NCBI RefSeq assembly: GCF_022842045.1 | Contig: NZ_JALHQI010000030.1 | Coordinates: 1 to 36,453 of the forward strand | DNA length: 36,453 nt | Source of the DNA: Arenimonas sp. | Lineage (GTDB): Bacteria; Pseudomonadota; Gammaproteobacteria; Xanthomonadales; Xanthomonadaceae | Direction: 5' to 3' | Shown here: positions 20,246 through 35,923 of the stretch, piece after piece | Position numbering within the stretch: position 1 is the first letter of the stretch | How the letters are laid out: each line of letters begins with the position of its first letter | Translations under genes and position numbers: made by a program | Notes under the pieces: model-generated | Told to the model about the DNA's origin: nothing | Databases searched by the model: none | What the model saw: the letters and a program-made list of their open reading frames with translations, nothing else

Positions 20246-20415
20246 GGGTCAAGCTCCACGGGAACGGAACAAGCAGCATCGGCCTCACCCGCGCCGGAAC
20301 CTACTCGGCATTACACCCACGGCCACGGGAGGGAAAACCCCCAGCGGCGGTCCGAGGCGGCGACGGGATGGCGATGGCGCTCGCAGTGCCTGGGCCGGGC
20401 CGGCTCCGACACCAG

Positions 20416-20440
20416 GAAGTGAACCTGACCCCGTTTTCCG
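20416..20440. repeat. Solitary REP-like sequence before the SDR gene
   Basis: Bases 20416-20435 read GAAGTGAACCTGACCCCGTT, continuing TTCCG; the complement contains GGGGTCAGGTTCACTT. This resembles the GGGTC-containing repeat class that is frequent between genes in Xanthomonadaceae, as far as can be recalled. No inverted partner is visible here. It lies in the 229-base gap between the divergent subtilase and SDR genes. Confidence 0.45.
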
Positions 20441-22364: not shown

Positions 22365-24323
<1,959 letters not shown>

Positions 24324-24332
<9 letters not shown>

Positions 24333-24349
24333 ACCAGGGTCATTTGCAT
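24324..24349. repeat. Palindromic REP copy overlapping the acs stop
   Basis: CAAATGAACC-A-GGGTCATTTG (24326-24346), imperfect by one base pair. It supplies the TGA of acs on the plus strand and the TGA of the broken RAYT on the minus strand. Confidence 0.8.
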
Positions 24350-24883
24350 TGCCTGCCGCGGTGGCGCAAGCCCGCGGGATGCCCCAGGACTTGCTCGACG
24401 CTGGCCTGGAATGCCGCTGAACCCCAGGCGCGGCCCTGCTGGGTGTAGCGGCGAAGCTGGTCGCGGTCGTCGTCGCTGATGCCCGCGGCAACGAGCGCCG
24501 AGTAGGCCCGCTGCCGGACCAGGGGATCCTTCGCCGGGTCGGAAGTAGCGTTCGGAATCGATGAGGCAGGAGCGGAAGCGACCCTCCCACAGCGTGCCGG
24601 TGCGTTCATGGCGGGCGTTGAAGTAGCGGACGTAGCGGGTGCCGAGCTGCTGCATCATCCGGCGTGTGGCGCCGTCCTCGGCTGCCGTCACCAGGAGATG
24701 GACATGGTTGTTCATCAGCACGTAGGCATGGATCGCGCAGCCGTGTCGCTTGGCGGCCTGCCCTAGTTCGTCCAGGGACTGCCGGTAATCACCTCTGTGC
24801 CGGAAGCACGCGCATCGGTCCACGCCCCGTTGGATGATGTGCTTGGGCGTGTGGGCGATATCGAACCGGGATTGTGCTGGCAT
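24340..24883 (-). pseudogene. REP-associated tyrosine transposase (RAYT), disrupted
   Basis: Remnant of a Y1/HUH transposase of the TnpA-REP family, which handles REP hairpins. From ATG 24883, residues 1-114 are intact: HTPKHIIQRGVDR, the HUH motif NNHVHLL (His60, His62), GTLWEGRFRSCLIDSERYF. At about 24541 the frame jumps to another frame that encodes the normal C-terminus (DPAKDPLVRQRAYSALVAAG, then QGRAWGSAAFQASVEQ). What should join them, the helix with the catalytic tyrosine (YIxxNPVRA block) and the following WSSYR region, is missing. This is an out-of-frame deletion, so no active enzyme can be made. It is flanked by palindrome copies at 24326 and 24976. Confidence 0.9.
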
Positions 24884-24955
24884 CTGCGGGCTCCGCTGGC
24901 GAGTTGGCGCCAGTCTGTCCCGCGGTGCACGCGCAGGCCCTGCGCCATCCACTCA

Positions 24956-25007
24956 GATCCTCGTGCGAAACCAGCAAATGAACCTGGTTCATTTATGTGC
25001 GAGGATC
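24956..25007. repeat. Palindromic REP copy upstream of the RAYT and protease genes
   Basis: Perfect core AAATGAACCTGGTTCATTT at 24976-24994, nested inside an outer inverted repeat GATCCTCG (24956-24963)/CGAGGATC (25000-25007). It lies about 90 bases before both the RAYT start (minus strand) and the alpha-lytic-type protease start (plus strand). Confidence 0.85.
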
Positions 25008-25093
25008 GGGGTGCCGGGCCCGCCCCGCCTGCTGACCAGACGCCCCCACGGCAGGTCCTGCGCCTTCGATCTTTTCTCGACAGGAGTAAGCAG

Positions 25094-26287
25094 ATGCGTA
25101 AGTTCGCCACCTGGGCCAAACGCGGCCTCATCGTTCTCTCCCCCCTCGCGCTGTTCGCCGCGATGTCCGCTTCGGCGGCGCCGCACGAGAACAGCGTGCC
25201 GGCCGCCGTGCGCGAGGCCCTGCAGCGTGACCTCGGCCTCGCCCCGGGCCAGCTGGCCCAGTATCTGAAGGTCGAGCGCCAGGCGCTGCAGCTCGAGCGC
25301 CAGCTCGCCAATGCGCAGGGCGACCGTTTCGCCGGCAGCTGGCTCGAGCGCAAGGCCAACGGCCATTACCAGCTGGTCGTGGCCAGCACCTCGCTGCAGC
25401 CTCAGCGCGGCCCCGCCGACACGGAGATCCGCAGCGTGCGCCACAGCCTCGCGGCGCTCGGTGAGTCCAAGCGCGAGCTCGATAAGCTGACGCAGCGCGG
25501 CGCCAGGGCCCCGCACGGCGTGTACGGCTGGTTCGTGGACGTGCGCAACAACAGCGTCACGGTGAACATCGCGCCGGGCGGCGAGCAGGCGGCCGTCGAC
25601 TTCGTCGCCGCCAGTGGTGCCGACGCCGGCACCGTGCGCTTCGAGACCATGGCCTCGGCACCGCGCCCGCTGGCCACGCTGCAGGGCGGCAGCGAGTACC
25701 TGTCCAACGACGGCAGCAACTACTACTACTGCTCGGTCGGCTTCGCCGTCACCCGGCAGGGCGCACAGGGCTTCGCCACCGCGGGCCATTGCGGCGCGGC
25801 GGGCGACCGCGTCTTCGTGGCGGTCAACCGCCGCACCGTGAGCCAGATCGGCGCCTTCGCGGCGTCCAACTTCCCTGGCGCGGACCGCGCCTGGGTGCAG
25901 GTGGACAATAACCACACGCTGCAGCCGGTGGTGGATGGCTACAGCGGAAGCGACATCGTTGTGCGCGGCAGCACCGAAGCACCGATCGGCGCCGCCGTCT
26001 GCCGTTCGGGCCGCACCACGGGCCTGCATTGCGGCGTGATCGAAGCCAAGAACGTCACCGTGCAGTACCCGGGCGAACAGGTGAACGGCCTCACCCAGGT
26101 CAAGGTGTGCGCCGAGGGCGGCGACTCCGGTGGTTCGTTCATCACCAGCCCCGGCCAGGCCCAGGGCGTGCTCTCGGGCGGCAACTACAGCTGCAAGGGC
26201 AAGCAGGCGAAGCTGGCCACCAGCTACTTCCAACCGATCATCCCGCTGCTGCAGGCCTACGGCCTGACCCTCACCACCACGCCCTGA
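25094..26287 (+). CDS. Alpha-lytic-type serine endopeptidase precursor (S1E)
   Basis: Secreted chymotrypsin-fold protease made as a pre-pro form. At 397 residues it has the same length as the Lysobacter alpha-lytic protease precursor and closely follows it from end to end. The signal peptide is GLIVLSPLALFAAMSASA; the pro region (about 30-210) acts in the homologue as a folding chaperone (REALQRDLGLAPGQLAQYL, VDFVAASGADAGTVRFE). The mature domain carries His232 (TAGHCG), Asp264 (GADRAWV) and Ser345 (GGDSGGSF), with VRGSTEAPIGAAVCRSGRTT. Paired cysteines are present. The ATG at 25094 has AGGAG upstream at 25082-25086. It is probably used to digest other organisms' proteins or cells. Confidence 0.95.
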   Translation: MRKFATWAKRGLIVLSPLALFAAMSASAAPHENSVPAAVREALQRDLGLAPGQLAQYLKVERQALQLERQLANAQGDRFAGSWLERKANGHYQLVVASTSLQPQRGPADTEIRSVRHSLAALGESKRELDKLTQRGARAPHGVYGWFVDVRNNSVTVNIAPGGEQAAVDFVAASGADAGTVRFETMASAPRPLATLQGGSEYLSNDGSNYYYCSVGFAVTRQGAQGFATAGHCGAAGDRVFVAVNRRTVSQIGAFAASNFPGADRAWVQVDNNHTLQPVVDGYSGSDIVVRGSTEAPIGAAVCRSGRTTGLHCGVIEAKNVTVQYPGEQVNGLTQVKVCAEGGDSGGSFITSPGQAQGVLSGGNYSCKGKQAKLATSYFQPIIPLLQAYGLTLTTTP

Positions 26288-26312
26288 TGCAAAAGCGGTA
26301 CCGGGTTGCCAG

Positions 26313-26333
26313 CAAATGAACCTGGTTTATTTG
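26313..26333. repeat. Palindromic REP copy at the end of the cytochrome b561 gene
   Basis: CAAATGAACC-T-GGTTTATTTG, one pair off perfect. On the minus strand its AAATAA supplies the final Lys-stop of the cytochrome b561 gene; on the plus strand it starts 25 bases after the protease stop. Confidence 0.8.
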
Positions 26334-26857
26334 TCGTGTGCCATCGATTCGAAGACGCCGTCGCGGCGGACCCAGGCGTGGTACAGGGCGCCGGAGAGAT
26401 GCAGCAGGATCAGGCCGAAGAAGGCGTAGCCCAACGCGCCGTGAGCGCAGCGCAGCCACGAGTAGAGTGCGGCGTCCTGCGGAGCCAGCGCAGGCAGCAC
26501 AAAGCCGCCGGGCAGCGCCACGCCGTAGCCGCCGGCCGAGGACATCGCCCAGCCCAGCAGCGGCATCGCGAACATCAGCGTGTACAGCAGCACATGCGAT
26601 GCGCGGGCGACGCGCGCCTGCAGCGCCGGCACCGAATCCGGCAACGCCGGCGCCGGATGGCGCCACCGGTGCCACAGCCGCCAGGCGGCCAGCACCAGCA
26701 CCAGCAGGCCCAGCGGCCGGTGCAGCGCCAGCAGCCACGGCCGCGCCTCCAGCGAAGCCACCATGCCCACGCCGATGAAGATCATCGCCAGGATCATCGC
26801 CGCCATCGCCCAGTGCAGCCAGCGCGCGGTGCGGTCGTAGTGCGTTTTCGTGGACAT
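26327..26857 (-). CDS. Cytochrome b561 family protein
   Basis: 176-residue di-haem b membrane protein, passing electrons from quinol or to a periplasmic partner. It has four hydrophobic helices, with candidate haem ligands His15 (RWLHWAM), His46 (LLALHRPLG), His88 (ASHVLLYTLMF) and His139 or His153 (RCAHGALGY, LLHLSGALYH). Its ATG shares one base with the stop of the upstream catalase-like gene (TGATG), so the two are co-translated. Catalase-like protein next to cytochrome b561 is a recurring pair, and the cytochrome probably feeds electrons to it. The stop codon lies in a palindromic repeat. Confidence 0.9.
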   Translation of the reverse strand: MSTKTHYDRTARWLHWAMAAMILAMIFIGVGMVASLEARPWLLALHRPLGLLVLVLAAWRLWHRWRHPAPALPDSVPALQARVARASHVLLYTLMFAMPLLGWAMSSAGGYGVALPGGFVLPALAPQDAALYSWLRCAHGALGYAFFGLILLHLSGALYHAWVRRDGVFESMAHDK

Positions 26858-27921
26858 CAGTGGGCCTCCCCGGCCGCGGCGCGCTCGCGCTGGCGGCGGT
26901 TGAACGACACCGCGTAGGCCGCGGCACGCGCCGCCAGCACCGGATCGGCCGACGCGGCGATGCCTTCCGGCAGGATGGTCGGGTCGAAGTTGATGTCTCG
27001 GCAGTTGCCGTCGGCCTCGGCGTACGCGCGCTCGAGCACGAAGGTACCCGCGGCCACGCGCGTGCGGTCTTCGGGCCAGGGCTGCGAAGGGTTCTCGATG
27101 GGGTCGCCGTCTTCGGCCAGCGTCACGGCCAGCGTCCAGCGCACCGGGCCGGCGGCCAGGCGCGTGGCTAGCTCATCGGCCAGGTAGCTGGCTTCGGCCG
27201 CCTGGCGCTGTTCGGCCGGGAAGTCCTCGAACGGCGCCTGCGGCACGAACGACCAGCGCACGTGGCGCGCCTCGCCGGCGGCATTGGTGAATCGGAAAGC
27301 ATGCACGCCGTTGTAAGCGGTATTCGCATAGCTGCTGGACCAGGGCGCCGACTGCGCCCAGGCCATGAAGTTGGCAATCTCGGGGTGGCGCTCGGCGAAG
27401 GCCTTCTGTTTGGCCGGGTCGGGCTTACCCGTGGCCGGATCGGGCCGCGAGGCCAGGATCTGTTCGGCGAAGGCCTGCGGCGTCGACACCGCGAAGAAGG
27501 GGAAGCTGTTCATCGCCAGCCGCCACTGCTGCCCGTCGTCGGTGTCGAGCTGCAGCGCCAGGCTGCGCACGCGCGCCATGGCCTCGGGGCCGTTCGGGTC
27601 GCCTCCGCCGATGGACATGCGGCCCACCGCCGGGGTGCGCGCCTGGCTGAAAACGCGCGCCTTCGACAGCGCCGCGCCTTCGGGCGTGGGCTCGAAATAG
27701 CCGGCCACGCACACCCCGCGCGCATGCGCCCGCCGGAACCCGACGAAGGGCTTGCCGTTCTCGATGGTGTCGACCAGGCGCGGTGCCGTCACGCGCGCCG
27801 GCGTCAGCCAACCGGCGGTCCAGGCCAGCGCCGCGGCCAGGCCGCCCACCACGGCGGCAATGCCCAGGAACGGGAGCAAAGGGCGCCAGCGCGGCGGGGC
27901 AGGGGGCAGCGGTTCGTTCAT
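26857..27921 (-). CDS. Catalase-related peroxidase (SrpA-like)
   Basis: 354-residue haem peroxidase of the small catalase-core family. An N-terminal hydrophobic segment (LLPFLGIAAVVGGLAAALAW, about 14-35) acts as signal anchor, placing the protein in the periplasm. Catalytic His66 lies in GFRRAHARGVCVAGYFEPTP. The core has MSIGGGDPNG, MNSFPFFAVSTPQAF and NGVHAFRF, and the likely proximal Tyr is in RAAAYAVSFNRRQRE near the end. Unlike true catalases it lacks the NADPH and C-terminal domains, so organic hydroperoxide reduction is likely. ATG 27921 is the only good start. It is first in an operon with cytochrome b561. Confidence 0.9.
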   Translation of the reverse strand: MNEPLPPAPPRWRPLLPFLGIAAVVGGLAAALAWTAGWLTPARVTAPRLVDTIENGKPFVGFRRAHARGVCVAGYFEPTPEGAALSKARVFSQARTPAVGRMSIGGGDPNGPEAMARVRSLALQLDTDDGQQWRLAMNSFPFFAVSTPQAFAEQILASRPDPATGKPDPAKQKAFAERHPEIANFMAWAQSAPWSSSYANTAYNGVHAFRFTNAAGEARHVRWSFVPQAPFEDFPAEQRQAAEASYLADELATRLAAGPVRWTLAVTLAEDGDPIENPSQPWPEDRTRVAAGTFVLERAYAEADGNCRDINFDPTILPEGIAASADPVLAARAAAYAVSFNRRQRERAAAGEAH

Positions 27922-27980
27922 GACGGTACTCGCGATTCGGACAAGAAAGTAAGCCACACCCCCCCGTTGGCCGCAGGTGA

Positions 27981-28005
27981 ATCAAATGAACCTGGTTCAT
28001 TTGAT
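27981..28005. repeat. Perfect palindromic REP copy
   Basis: Two 12-base arms ATCAAATGAACC and GGTTCATTTGAT around a single T. It lies between the divergent catalase-like gene and the CPBP gene, 60 bases before the former. Confidence 0.85.
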
Positions 28006-28088
28006 TGGGCCGGGACCATGGGCACACGAATCCGGCGGCCGGGTTCACCTAGGATCGGGCAAGGCCCGCGCCGCGGGTCCCATGGCCG

Positions 28089-28979
28089 ATGAAGATGAAC
28101 CTGGTACCGCTATTACGACGCCTGTGGCAGGTGCTGCGCCAGCTGCTCCTGGCCATGGCCCTGGTCGTCGGCACCGCCCTGGCGTTCCGGTTCCTGCTGT
28201 ACCCGGCGGTGCTGTGGGCCTTCGACCCGGGTCCGGTGGTCGCTACCCAGGTCAAGCGGTTTGGCATCCTGGTGTTCGCCACCGTGGGCTACTGGCTTTA
28301 CATGCGCTACGTGCGCAGGCGACCGGCCATCGAGCTGCGGCCGGCGCCGGTCGGGGCCGCGCTCGGCGGGCTGGCGGGGGCCGGGCTGATTGGCCTGGCG
28401 CTGCTGCCGCTGTTCGCGTTCGGCGCCTATGCGGTGACCACGCAGCGGGGATTCCAGCCGGGCTTGCTGGAAATCGCGGGCTTCCTGTTCGTGGCCGCGA
28501 TGCTCGAAGAGCTGGTCTATCGCGGCGTGCTGTTCCAGACGCTCGAGTCGGCCTGGGGCACGGTGCCGGCGCTGTGGCTGCAGTCGCTGGTGTTCGGCGT
28601 CGCCCACCTCGAGAACGTGTTCGCGCTGAACGGCAGCGGCTGGGACCTGGCCGCCACCGTGCTTTCGGTGACCCTGCTGGGCGCGATGTGGACGCTGCTG
28701 TTCGTGCTCACGCGAAACCTTTGGATCTGCGGGCTGAACCACTTCGCCTGGAACTTCACCATCCTGTGCAGCGGCGTGCCGCTGTCGGGCATCGAGGACT
28801 GGCGCGCGCAGGCGCCGATCGAAACCGCCTACCGCGCACCCGACTGGCTCACCGGCGGCCTGTTCGGTCCCGAGAACTCGGCGGTGACGCTGGTGTTGGT
28901 GGGCCTGGCGGTGGGCGGCATGCTTCAATGGGCCGCGAAGCACGCCCGTCTCAGGCCCGCCCCCGCCTCCGCCGCATGA
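28089..28979 (+). CDS. CPBP-family intramembrane metalloprotease
   Basis: 296-residue membrane protein of the type II CAAX protease (Rce1/CPBP, Abi) family. Several hydrophobic helices surround the motifs EExxxR (Glu140-Glu141, Arg145 in MLEELVYRG), FGVAH (His173) and NHFAWN (His218), the expected metal-site residues. Substrates in bacteria are mostly unknown. Start choice is open: ATG 28089 (MKMNLVP) or ATG 28095. The second lies in GATGAACCTGGTACC, which looks like half of the repeat palindrome, so the gene start may have been reshaped by it. Confidence 0.85.
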   Translation: MKMNLVPLLRRLWQVLRQLLLAMALVVGTALAFRFLLYPAVLWAFDPGPVVATQVKRFGILVFATVGYWLYMRYVRRRPAIELRPAPVGAALGGLAGAGLIGLALLPLFAFGAYAVTTQRGFQPGLLEIAGFLFVAAMLEELVYRGVLFQTLESAWGTVPALWLQSLVFGVAHLENVFALNGSGWDLAATVLSVTLLGAMWTLLFVLTRNLWICGLNHFAWNFTILCSGVPLSGIEDWRAQAPIETAYRAPDWLTGGLFGPENSAVTLVLVGLAVGGMLQWAAKHARLRPAPASAA

Positions 28980-29169
28980 GCCGCGCCCCACAGCGCGGTC
29001 CATGAACCGCACCTCCAGCGCCTGCGAAGGATCGTCGGGAATCGCGCCCAGGAACGCGCGCAGGCTCGCCGGCTTCGCGCAGGGCCTGCCTTCGGTCGCC
29101 GAGCCACGCCACGCCGGACAGCAGCCCGACGTAGACGAGCGACACCAGCAGCACCCCGCCTGGAATCAC
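28951..29169 (-). pseudogene. Remnant of a symporter-type sensor histidine kinase N-terminus (tentative)
   Basis: A GTG at 29169 with GGGAGGGG just upstream opens MIPGGVLLVSLVYVGLLSG, then VAWLGDRRQALREAGE. This is very like the first helix of hybrid sensor kinases that begin with a sodium/solute-symporter domain (CrbS/NahK type). After about 35 residues the resemblance stops and the frame runs into the end of the CPBP gene. A different frame reads FLGAIPDDPSQALEVRFMDR, suggesting a second fragment or a frameshift. It may instead be a genuine small membrane protein. Confidence 0.35.
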
Positions 29170-29206
29170 GGCCCCTCCCCCGCGAATCAGCGCCCCCGGA
29201 GTGAAG

Positions 29207-29233
29207 TAGCAAATGAACCAGGTTCATTTGCTA
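29207..29233. repeat. Perfect palindromic REP copy
   Basis: Two 13-base arms TAGCAAATGAACC and GGTTCATTTGCTA around a single A. The outer TAGC/GCTA differs from the ATC/GAT of the copy at 27981 but stays complementary. Confidence 0.85.
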
Positions 29234-29490
29234 GACCAAAGTCGAAGGCGGGCGGGACATGAACGCGGGCCCGTCGCTCACAGGCACGTAACGGACGCCG
29301 GCCGGCAAGGCGCGTACCGTCGGTCTTGCGCTACGACGCAAGGTCGTAACGGCCACTCAGCCGCGCCGCAACACCCTTCCTTACTCCGCACTGAGCCCCC
29401 CGCCCCTGCCCCCGCAGGGGTCACGGCGTCTGCCGTCCCGGATCCGCCCCCGCGGATCCACCCCCGCGGATCCACCCAGAAGGAATCCCC
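29234..29490. other. Upstream region of the fasciclin gene with short repeats
   Basis: No gene seen. It contains a 6-base-stem hairpin CTTGCG/CGCAAG (29325-29342) and a tandem of a 14-base unit, GATCCGCCCCCGCG (29441-29454), GATCCACCCCCGCG (29455-29468) and a partial third copy (29469-29476), just before the fasciclin ribosome site AAGGAAT. Confidence 0.6.
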
Positions 29491-30018
29491 ATGACCAACC
29501 ACACCTCCCCCTCGACCCCGGTCGCCGCCAAGGCCGCCCCGGCCACGATGAACCTGATCGACACTGCCGCCGCCAACGGCAGCTTCAAGACCTTCGGCAA
29601 GGCGATCGAGCAGGCCGGCCTGGCCGACTCGCTGCGCGCGACCGGTCCGTTCACGGTGTTCGCCCCCACCGACGCCGCGTTCGACAAGCTGCCGGCCGGC
29701 AAGCTCGAAGGCCTGATGAAGCCGGAGAACAAGGATGAACTCGCCGGCATCCTCAACTACCACGTCGTGAAGGGCAGCCAGTCGGCGGCCACCATCGGCA
29801 AGTGGGATTCGGCGCGCACGCTGCAGGGCCAGTCGGCCCCGATCAAGATGGCCGACGGCAAATGCTGCGTGGACGGCGCCAACGTCACCCAGGCCGACAT
29901 CGCCACCAGCAACGGCGTGATCCACGCGATCGACAAGGTGAACCTGCCGACGGCGCTGGCGGCGGAAGCCAAGGCCGACGGCACGCCGTCCAAGCCTGCG
30001 GTGCCCACCAAGCAGTAG
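29491..30018 (+). CDS. Fasciclin (FAS1) domain protein
   Basis: 175-residue protein with one FAS1 domain (about 20-155), an adhesion-type fold. Motifs are NLIDTAAANGSFKTFGKAIE, GPFTVFAPTDAAFDKLP, LAGILNYHVVKG and, near the end, SNGVIHAIDKVNLP. The N-terminus (MTNHTSPSTPVAAKA) is Ser/Thr/Pro/Ala-rich and has no recognisable signal peptide, so the location is unclear. AGAAGGAA lies before the ATG. A Lys/Pro/Thr tail follows the domain. It stands alone, between palindrome copies at 29207 and 30121. Confidence 0.9.
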   Translation: MTNHTSPSTPVAAKAAPATMNLIDTAAANGSFKTFGKAIEQAGLADSLRATGPFTVFAPTDAAFDKLPAGKLEGLMKPENKDELAGILNYHVVKGSQSAATIGKWDSARTLQGQSAPIKMADGKCCVDGANVTQADIATSNGVIHAIDKVNLPTALAAEAKADGTPSKPAVPTKQ

Positions 30019-30032
30019 CGCTGCGAAACCGG

Positions 30033-30064
30033 GCGGCGGCGGGGGAGTCCCCCCCGGCCGCCGC
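30033..30064 (+). terminator. GC-rich hairpin after the fasciclin gene
   Basis: GCGGCGGCGGGGG pairs with CCCCCGGCCGCCGC with one bulged base and a five-base loop, 15 bases after the stop. There is no T-run, so it is at best a weak intrinsic terminator. Confidence 0.45.
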
Positions 30065-30120
30065 ATTCGCGGCAACCCGCGAGACGGGCGTGACGTACGT
30101 CCGCGTAGGGTGCCAGAACC

Positions 30121-30145
30121 ATCAAATGAACCGGGTCCATTTGTT
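30121..30145. repeat. Palindromic REP copy, degenerate
   Basis: ATCAAATGAACC-G-GGTCCATTTGTT: two mismatched pairs compared with the perfect copies. It lies just upstream of, and touching, the proposed -35 box of the SRPBCC gene. Confidence 0.75.
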
Positions 30146-30172
30146 GCCTGGGCGCGGGGCTGCCGTCAAAAT
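30144..30172 (+). promoter_or_regulatory. Putative promoter of the SRPBCC gene
   Basis: TTGCCT (30144-30149), 17 bases, CAAAAT (30167-30172), then the ATG six bases later. This predicts a leaderless transcript; the -35 box overlaps the end of the palindrome by two bases. Confidence 0.45.
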
Positions 30173-30178
30173 CGGGGC

Positions 30179-30667
30179 ATGCCCGTTACCTGCCACGCCG
30201 AACGCTCGCTCCCCTGCCGCCCCGAAGTCGCCTTCGCGCTGGCCACCGACCCGGACCGCTTCCCGACCTTCTTCACCGGTTTCGGGCCGATCCCGGCCGT
30301 GCGCGGGATCCGGCTGCACTCGCCGCTGGCGGTGGGCAGCCAGCGCCGCGTGCACAACGCCGACGGCACCGTGCTCAGCGAGCGCGTCATCGCCCATGAC
30401 CCGCCGGTGCGCCACGCCTACACGCTCAGCGGCTTCCGGCCGCCGTTCGCGTGGCTGGTCACCAAGGGCGAGGCCAACTGGACCATCACCGGCCACGAGT
30501 TCGGCTCGCGCGTGCGCTGGGACTACGAGTTCGAACTGACCCGCCGCTGGCTGTGGCCGGTCGCCGCGCTGGTGCTGAAGCTGTTCATGGCCCGCGCGAT
30601 GCACCGCTGCCTGAAGAACATGTCGCGCGCGCTGACGACCCCCGACCCGGCCCCTGGCAAGCCCTGA
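30179..30667 (+). CDS. SRPBCC-family protein
   Basis: 162-residue START/polyketide-cyclase-like protein with the usual opening (CHAERSLPCRPEVAFALATD), a middle HNADGTVLSERVIAHDPPVR and a long C-terminal helix (LVLKLFMARAMHRCLKNMSR). The fold binds a hydrophobic ligand, which is unknown here. Its stop overlaps the ATG of the following broken sterol desaturase gene (TGATG), so they were one operon. Confidence 0.8.
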   Translation: MPVTCHAERSLPCRPEVAFALATDPDRFPTFFTGFGPIPAVRGIRLHSPLAVGSQRRVHNADGTVLSERVIAHDPPVRHAYTLSGFRPPFAWLVTKGEANWTITGHEFGSRVRWDYEFELTRRWLWPVAALVLKLFMARAMHRCLKNMSRALTTPDPAPGKP

Positions 30668-31373
30668 TGGGCGAGTGGCTCCTGCTGGCGATGGCGCCCG
30701 TGTTCCTGGGCTTCATCGGCTGGGAGGCCTGGCACTGGCACCGCCGCGGCGTGCCGCACTACAGCCTGCGCGACACGCTTTCCAACGCCGCCCTCGCATT
30801 GATGCACCAGGCGGCCGACGCCGTGCCCACCACCGCATCCGCTGGATGTGGGCCTCGCACGTGGTGCACCACTCCTCGGAGCGGCTGAACCTGTCCACCG
30901 CGTTCCGGCAAAGCCTCACCTACCCGGTGTCGGGCATGTGGATGTTCTGGCTGCCGCTGGCCTTGCTCGGGTTCTCGCCGCCGCACATCGTGATCGTGGT
31001 GGCGATCAACCTGGGCTTCCAGTTCTTCGTCCACACGCAGGCGGTGGGGAAGCTGGGCTGGCTGGAAAAGGTGTTCAACACGCCCTCGCACCACCGCGTG
31101 CACCATGCGCGCAACGGCAAGTACATCGACCGCAACTACGCCGGCGTGCTGATCGTCTGGGACAAGCTGTTCGGCAGTTTCGTCGAAGAGGACCTGGACG
31201 TCCCCTGCGAGTACGGCATCGTCAAGCCCGTGCGCACCCACGACCCGCTCACGCTCACCTTCCACGAGTGGCGCGACATGCTGCGTGACGCGGCGCGGCC
31301 GCAGTCGCTGCGTTCCCGGCTGGGGCAACTGTTCGGGCCGCCGGAAAAGGCGCATTCGCAGGGTCCCACCTAA
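30667..31373 (+). pseudogene. Sterol desaturase/fatty acid hydroxylase family, disrupted
   Basis: Member of the di-iron membrane hydroxylase superfamily, broken by an internal deletion. From ATG 30667, 52 residues are normal (MGEWLLLAMAPVFLGFIGWE to LSNAALALMHQAADA). At about 30822 the continuing homology moves to another frame: HHRIRWMWASHVVHHSSERL, then FVHTQAVGKLGW, NTPSHHRVHHARNGKYIDRN, and a regular end at 31373. About 50 residues are missing, including two helices and the first histidine box (FHRxSH), and the frame is shifted, so no working enzyme is expected unless the sequence has an error here. Confidence 0.85.
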
Positions 31374-31561
31374 GGTCGTATTGACGCCGCCGCGGGCCAG
31401 AAGGCGCGCGTGGCCGCGGCCAGCGAGGCGTCGCGCTTCGCCGAGGTCGGCCCGTGCGATTTGTTCGGTGCGTGCGCTCACCGGCTTCCCGCTGCCGATC
31501 CCGCGCCAGGAGCTGGCCCTGGCCTGGCTGTCGCTGTCGCGGGGGTGACGGCGGACAAAAG
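31374..31561. other. Gap after the desaturase remnant
   Basis: No gene can be supported. One frame ends with VRALTGFPLPIPRQELALAW at a TGA (31546-31548) and looks protein-like, while the bases before it read better in another frame (GQKARVAAASEASRFAEV). This could be a decayed gene end but matches nothing I recognise. Confidence 0.3.
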
Positions 31562-35815: not shown

Positions 35816-35833
35816 GCCCGCCATTGTCGCGGC

Positions 35834-35917
35834 AAAAAAGGGGTCGGAGTAAATATTTGTTTGAAACGGGCAGGCGAGCCGAGCCGTTTCAAGCAAATAT
35901 TTACTCCGACCCTTTTT
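35834..35917. repeat. Long REP-type inverted repeat upstream of rsmG
   Basis: Bases 35834-35869 and 35884-35917 form a nearly perfect 34-base hairpin (outer part AAAAGGGGTCGGAGTAAAT, inner part GTTTGAAACGG) with a 14-base loop. The GGGTCGGAG heart resembles the GGGTC repeat class of Xanthomonadaceae and is unrelated to the AAATGAACC palindrome. It fills the gap between rsmG and the gene before it. Confidence 0.85.
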
Positions 35918-35923
35918 CGGCCT

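Follow-up and report, generated by a model that had tools for sequence, protein, structure and literature searches.

The window analysed here, 36,453 nucleotides from an Arenimonas species (contig NZ_JALHQI010000030.1 of assembly GCF_022842045.1), carries eight copies of a short palindrome and the decayed gene of a REP-associated tyrosine transposase (RAYT), REP being short for repetitive extragenic palindrome. On the plus strand, the 19-mer AAATGAACCNGGTTCATTT starts at 481, 543, 24327, 24976, 26314, 27984, 29211 and 30124. A preliminary description, made from the letters alone, had already pointed to eight full copies; each lies within 4 bases of the position it gave and differs from its core by 0-3 mismatches, depending on the strand, and 100 dinucleotide shuffles of the window gave 0 matches at up to 3 mismatches. 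The full palindrome is the 21-bp CAAATGAACCNGGTTCATTTG, a near-perfect dyad with one free central base.

The first two copies (481-499 and 543-561) form an inverted pair upstream of a gene at 583-1512. The left palindrome is AAATGTACC-A-GGTTCATCT, a form we call subtype b, the right one is AAATGAACC-T-GGTACATTT, and the stretch 474-568 folds as one long hairpin (z -8.1). The other six copies, likewise on the plus strand, are single palindromes. The copy at 24327-24345 gives acs its TGA stop codon; we read it and the exact copy at 24976-24994 as the two end-repeats of the RAYT remnant (24340-24883, minus strand). The copy at 26314-26332 lies between convergent genes and supplies the stop of the minus-strand gene at 26327-26857, and just before it stands the remnant of a subtype-c end, GCGGTACCGGGTT (26295-26307, plus strand). 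Further along, the copies at 27984-28002 (between divergent genes, arms GAATC/GATT) and 29211-29229 (arms TAGC/GCTA) have counterparts in A. metalli, as does the copy between two tandem genes at 30124-30142, where the counterpart is more decayed. The described density of nearly one copy per gene boundary holds for six of the seven boundaries in 24.3-30.2 kb, the remnant being counted as a gene. What had been taken for a half-copy at 28094 has five mismatches to the core, but is recognizable on the minus strand (28110-28091) as a subtype-c end, GCGGTACCAGGTTCATCTTC, that overlaps the first part of the gene at 28089-28979.

The palindrome is dispersed through the genome. In the window's own genome (G000; 3,082,973 bases in 126 contigs, with the window as contig C30), a search for the core at up to 2 mismatches found 46 places, 27 of them exact, and a reversed control pattern found 0. 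Seventeen of these places fall on two contigs, C9 (9) and C30 (8), which together span about 100 kb; C9 is without any RAYT hit in our search of this genome with the Pfam model PF01797, and the clustering is therefore unexplained. At the same threshold, 7 of 27 genomes of the genus held matches (46, 44, 15, 14, 11, 8 and 4), and outside the genus two of 34 genomes from the same family or order had one 2-mismatch match each. In a search of named genomes, which may leave out records of the window's own genome, 17 of the 24 stretches with exact copies were from Arenimonas (16 from A. metalli CF5-1, the draft genome G026 and the main species compared here, and one from an Arenimonas metagenome-assembled genome); the remaining seven were single matches in unrelated genomes.

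Copies are strongly biased in position. Among the 48 copies found at up to 3 mismatches, placed with gene calls from a codon-usage script or simple caller rather than curated annotation, 38 were intergenic, whereas intergenic DNA makes up 7.9% of the positions in those loci. Of these intergenic copies, 21 lay within 10 nt of a stop codon, compared with 15.1% of intergenic positions (P 1.2e-8, with each pair counted as two copies), and 11 of the stop codons are a TGA that belongs to the palindrome. Twelve intergenic copies lie between convergent, 21 between tandem and five between divergent genes. Additionally, in-frame pairs lie inside hrpA (TIGR01967, 1414 bits; locus L034, 1134-5180) and icmF (NF045497, 1610 bits; locus L056, 1262-4798), where they read QMNQVHL...NEPGSF or near it. 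Both insertions are common to A. metalli, with subtype c at both ends there and subtype a at both ends in the window's genome.

The remnant in the middle of the window's copies is one of three PF01797 hits in its genome (match at 24557-24841 on the minus strand, E 1.1e-9), and its match to the NCBIfam model NF047646 (E 7.4e-10) is below that model's cut-off. The part of this HUH Y1 transposase that bears NHVH is open, the frame breaks after ...SERYF, a C-terminal piece lies in another frame, and no YIELNP motif, which would hold the catalytic tyrosine, was seen. When positions 23000-31400 of the window were used for a DNA search, G011, G021 and G023 proved to have intact RAYT genes at the corresponding site downstream of acs. 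These orthologs (L066, L079 and L080) carry NHVH, WEGR and YIELNP, which correspond to the subclass 2.1 motifs NH[VY]H, W[EQ] and YIELNP; in L080, Y1_Tnp is the only Pfam match at E up to 0.1, so that the C-terminal helix-turn-helix domain of subclass 2.1 has no match, although a C-terminal tail of about 100 amino acids is present. Over 114 amino acids the remnant shares 71-72% identity with these three proteins, compared with at most 67% for the other 16 RAYTs (67% over 60 residues; the next 58%), and in a tree of 18 RAYTs it groups with the acs-locus orthologs (FastTree local support 0.97).

All three intact genes are flanked by inverted ends of the GAACCAGGTT type, here called subtype d, 823 nt apart in G011 and G023; the two palindromes around the window remnant are 649 apart. 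The preliminary description had proposed a comparison with intact RAYT genes of related species, and these three genomes show the same kind of inverted end-repeat. For the genus as a whole, end-repeats were examined in RAYTs with NH[VY]H and Y-x-x-NP motifs, that is, in 20 of 51 PF01797 hits; of the other 31, six had other motifs and 25 showed no HUH frame in a simple search of the text, and two hits below the cut-off (G022:C9 and G009:C199) were kept out of the set of 51. Inverted end-repeats surround 17 of these 20 group-1-like RAYTs, with scores of 17-46, and 0 of 400 shuffles reached 17. The GAACCAGGTT type occurs in the three acs-locus orthologs only, and the other 14 RAYTs with an end-repeat carry different ones; 11 of the 17 have the motif GGGGWSAS in one arm or both. 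A RAYT or remnant of the GAACCAGGTT type was found in at least four of the seven genus genomes that have copies and in 0 of the 20 without, the counts being a lower bound because 31 of the 51 hits stood outside the end-repeat test.

In A. metalli, which has no RAYT at the acs locus, acs ends ...CGC TGA, compared with ...CGC CTC AAA TGA in the window's genome, where the last two codons are the palindrome; in six relatives acs ends ...TGA without it. In A. metalli, G010, G011, G021 and G023, the next frame after acs is response-regulator-like, and that of A. metalli matches Response_reg and GerE. No such gene was found in the window between acs and a protease gene (24347-25090), an interval that holds nothing but the RAYT remnant with two palindromes. 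Thus, the copy at 24327 probably marks a deletion junction, and the response-regulator-like gene was probably lost by deletion next to the RAYT end-repeat.

Two other sites in the window resemble RAYT ends. A second terminal-repeat pair at 35831-35922, with 39-nt arms GGCAAAAAAGGGGTCGGAGTAAATATTTGTTTGAAACGG that are 90% complementary, is similar to the end-repeat (GGGGTCAGAGTAAATTTCTGTTTGAA) of RAYT L068 from A. metalli, and a single GGAAGTGAACCTGACCCCGTT at 20415-20435 is the end-repeat type of RAYTs L062, L064 and L078. Together with the ends described above, the window thus holds ends resembling three RAYT families.

Copies fall into subtypes that differ between species. Subtype a, CAAATGAACC-N-GGTTCATTTG, occurs in the window's genome and in A. 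metalli, as does subtype b, AAATGTACC-A-GGTTCATTT, represented in the window by the 481/543 pair. The exact core of subtype c, GCCGTACC-R-GGTTCATTTT, was found 23 times forward and 19 times in reverse in A. metalli, 0 times in the window's genome and 0-2 times in any other genus member; about 20 sites in A. metalli are subtype-c hairpins, most with TGAGAC in the stem. Subtype d, as the tandem TGAACCAGGTTGATTTTATTGAACCAGG at up to 3 mismatches, is present in 3 of the 27 genus genomes (G011, G021 and G023). Four loci read in G010 and G020 have AAAATGTACC-N-GGTACATTTT or a form near it, in which an A-T pair of subtype a is T-A, so that the core itself covaries between species.

The inverted pair looks like the complete unit, and the single palindromes look like collapsed remnants. 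This corrects the preliminary description, which had suggested a REP origin. In the window's genome there are ten neighbouring pairs, 22-112 nt apart, and all ten have complementary centres; eight of the ten have an A centre followed by a T centre, as at the two RAYT ends, and the spacer is 3-45 nt in nine and 93 nt in one. Among the A. metalli loci fetched, 20 of 26 listed pairs (two sites are listed twice) have complementary centres. At L043, L045, L051 and two sites on C9, a pair in A. metalli stands opposite a single in the window's genome, and the single at L045 has an imperfect centre resembling a deletion scar. The opposite pattern was seen once (L050), where a pair faces one copy in A. 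metalli, which also has other DNA there. The change would run from pair to single, and the pattern fits the proposal of Bertels and Rainey (2011; PMC3116915) that singlets are remnants of doublets.

Of the sites that can be compared, most are shared by the two genomes. In the two stretches compared for synteny with A. metalli (window 23.0-31.4 kb and C9 13-33 kb), shared sites are window 27984, 29211 and 30124 and C9 15004, 17086/17117, 24942 and 26540; A. metalli is without an element opposite window 24327 and 26314 and C9 29676. Window 24976 and C9 13987 are not comparable on both sides and stand outside these ten sites; opposite C9 13987, A. metalli has a subtype-c pair at a contig edge. 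We also looked up six A. metalli subtype-c sites in the window's genome. Two hold a different inverted repeat in the same slot, and the other four consist of a remnant, an empty-looking junction, a subtype-a copy beside an N gap and a site that could not be aligned; the empty-looking slot, opposite A. metalli C44:81196, lies between two stop codons and its junction is imprecise. The two replacements, at L207 (contig C18) and L213 (C29), are dispersed-looking inverted repeats, TGTGGGAGGGACGTCAGTC... and CTGTAGGAGGGCCTTCAGGCC..., and L171 holds at 1642-1670 a relative, about 28 nt long, that has an exact copy in A. metalli.

Arms that differ between copies yet stay complementary had been described as a feature of the palindromes, with 27981 and 29207 as examples. 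These two examples stand (copies 27984 and 29211), but among the six window singles they are the only ones whose arms pair contiguously beyond the core-adjacent C/G; there is no such pairing in 24327, 24976, 26314 and 30124. Across 27 of the 28 singles of this genome (one was dropped for a run of N), pairing is seen in 127 of the 270 arm cells that lie beyond the 21-mer, compared with 93.7 +/- 7.3 when right arms were permuted (0 of 10000 as high). Six singles carry most of this excess, and without the six longest runs it is weak (84 of 210 versus 69.9 +/- 6.2; 80 of 5000 as high). In 12 A. metalli singles, pairing showed no excess (42 of 120 cells versus 36.0 +/- 4.4; 1082 of 10000 as high), while run length did exceed permutation (10 of 10000). 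We therefore rejected arm covariation as a property of all copies, with the cell counts of A. metalli singles at the permutation level and most of the excess in the window's genome lying in six. Complete elements behave differently: A. metalli has 19 exact full subtype-c pairs, and in the 18 that were scored (C11:124457 was left out) 267 of 306 cells pair, versus 159.7 +/- 15.0 permuted (0 of 10000), although arms taken from different copies match at just 8.5 of the 17 inner positions scored. Thus, arms covary strongly in complete elements.

Comparison between species indicates what this covariation may reflect. In 25 orthologous copies of the window's genome and A. metalli, 8 arm changes were compensatory and 80 broke pairs; several of the eight fall in copies of different subtype, and the sole clean compensatory change in place is A-T to G-C at L052 3076. 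At the base adjacent to the core, five changes were compensatory against one, and all five are in switches between subtypes a and c. The ratio of 8 to 80 suggests that the covariation fits copying or repair of hairpins better than lasting selection at each site. The earlier suggestion that the folded form matters may hold in this sense, for the copying or repair of elements, but these counts give no evidence of a present role for the host.

We propose, with a probability of roughly 0.85, that a TIRYT-type RAYT (subclass 2.1-like, group 1) has spread REPIN-like miniature elements and that the palindromes are the end-repeats of these elements, REPINs being REP doublets that form hairpins and TIR denoting a terminal inverted repeat. 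The unit would be an inverted pair made of a palindrome usually with an A centre, a variable spacer and a palindrome usually with a T centre, whose single-stranded hairpins would be cut and rejoined by the HUH enzyme. Insertions may have survived mainly at tolerated places, above all right at stop codons. The RAYT later decayed in the window's species, and it is absent from the acs site in A. metalli; the copies would then have been inherited vertically, many pairs losing one repeat and the spacer to leave single palindromes. Arms would pair as a result of being copied or repaired as one hairpin, and would now be decaying in most singles. The dispersal, the link to a RAYT, the inverted polarity, the bias in position and the sites common to A. 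metalli are observed, whereas the biochemistry, the direction from pair to single and any effect on the 3' ends of messenger RNA are inferred.

Several observations weigh against this proposal. The palindromes lack a GTAG foot (GT[AG]G in 2 of 96 eight-base flanks of the 48 copies, compared with 384 of 9600 random 8-mers from the same loci), and both proteins scanned with the NCBIfam RAYT model fall short of its cut-off. At the acs locus, the RAYT is dead or missing in the two genomes with the most copies (46 and 44), the four PF01797 hits of A. metalli have no cognate end within the flanks of about 1.5 kb examined, and the end-repeat test covers the 20 motif-bearing RAYTs of the 51. Centres are non-complementary in 6 of the 26 A. 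metalli pairs, mostly within clusters of three. Finally, 7 of 10 comparable syntenic sites are common to A. metalli and no movement was seen, so the family may be inactive.

Other explanations account for parts of the evidence. It is very improbable that the 21-bp palindrome is a transcription-factor operator, a dimer site for a regulon of some 40 genes. The near-perfect dyad with its free central base would suit such a site, as would the C and G that bound the core in 40 of 48 copies and a core less changed than the centre between orthologs, a comparison biased by the picking of copies by core match; the 12 of 38 intergenic copies between convergent genes, with only five between divergent ones, the copies inside hrpA and icmF, the linkage to a RAYT and the subtypes that differ between species all speak against it. 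We rejected the operator on gene orientation, coding copies and RAYT linkage, and the pattern that the preliminary description had named as pointing to one (few copies, all upstream of genes, without a RAYT link) did not occur. Excess conservation of the core was not used as an argument for purifying selection either, because copies in both genomes were chosen for a matching core; copies chosen by synteny in the two stretches show several core changes. A selected RNA element, in which a hairpin at the 3' end of the messenger RNA (mRNA) terminates transcription or blocks 3' exonucleases, and does so both ways where genes converge, is fairly unlikely. The strong stop-codon bias favours it, together with good RNA folds at 29211 (z -4.5), 24976 (z -2.9), 27984 (z -2.5) and the pairs at 474-568 and L043 (z -8.1 and -8.5) and the replacement of the element by another inverted repeat in the window's genome at two of the six A. 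metalli subtype-c sites looked up. However, among the six window singles folded, 24327, 26314 and 30124 fold no better than shuffles, orthologous arms break 80 times against 8 compensations, and the same positions are expected from insertion bias and purging. No terminator-like site coincides with any copy in 24000-30500, and a reading as terminators was rejected on that ground; a comparison of the window with Rfam gave nothing that reached gathering score.

Quasi-palindrome correction, in which hairpin-templated mutation perfects palindromes in place without selection or transposition, is possible, if on the unlikely side. It would explain arms that match within copies and differ between them, the presence at hrpA and icmF of subtype a at both ends in one genome and subtype c in the other, and the core-adjacent base, where five of six orthologous changes are compensatory, all in subtype switches. 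It cannot, however, create new copies, and correction from the inner half does not yield the G and C that bound the subtype-a 21-mer. A related idea, that old copies are rewritten in place, seems quite improbable. On this view both ends have switched together between subtypes c and a at orthologous insertions, hrpA and icmF included, and some gene 3' ends would be slots that keep a hairpin while its repeat family changes. If true, a RAYT-type enzyme or hairpin-templated repair would convert existing copies and not just add new ones.

Set beside known systems, the proposed RAYT-spread elements combine traits of several. Like canonical REPs, the palindromes are extragenic, dispersed and palindromic (46 places; 38 of 48 copies intergenic); like TIRYTs, a RAYT-like gene is flanked by inverted copies of a dispersed repeat (three orthologs and the remnant); and like REPINs, the inverted doublet forms one hairpin with compensatory arms. 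Di Nocera et al. (2013; PMC3733652) describe TIRtrons and TIRYTs, including a self-complementary TIR family in Stenotrophomonas maltophilia K279a, as well as REPs that supply stop codons, adjoin 3' ends or lie inside genes, and assign Pseudomonas REPs to the GTAG kind. The likeness to the TIR/TIRYT systems of that paper lies in a RAYT-like gene with non-GTAG inverted repeats that are dispersed singly and as dimers, and in the GGGGWSAS motif named there, carried by 11 of 17 Arenimonas RAYT ends. Unlike many, though not all, known TIRs, this palindrome family is without GGGGWSAS, a contrast with the TIR families drawn from their description and not from their sequences. A further difference is that in Arenimonas we trace the RAYT locus downstream of acs across four species and copies across two. 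PMC3116915 reports compensatory hairpin changes as common, and the Arenimonas doublets resemble REPINs in their hairpins, compensatory changes and singlets; Pseudomonas REPs, however, are linked to other RAYT groups, whereas the Arenimonas RAYT belongs to the YIELNP kind and both ends of a doublet are near-perfect palindromes in their own right. Intact orthologs share NHVH, W-E and YIELNP with subclass 2.1 TnpA-Y1, or Bertels group 1, of Quentin et al. (2018; PMC6006769). That study places most TIRYTs in subclass 2.1 and reports no REP-like sequence by subclass 2.1 genes, whereas in Arenimonas a dispersed palindrome family accompanies the RAYT. The REP origin first suggested for the family is supported as far as its RAYT is concerned, with the remnant flanked by copies and orthologs bearing the same kind of end-repeat, but these are not canonical GTAG REPs. 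Among the matches listed in a search of titles and abstract openings in an open-access library, no paper concerned this palindrome family; as far as that search goes, it is known in kind and new as a family.

A host function of the palindromes is unproven, and the family serves as a warning that arm covariation in dispersed repeats need not imply one. It offers a natural series for a poorly studied RAYT group, with an intact transposase and its ends in three species and a RAYT dead or absent at the acs locus in two species with more than 40 copies each. It also shows that copies can persist for longer than their transposase, and that the places where such elements survive are stop codons and, within two enzymes, in-frame sites.

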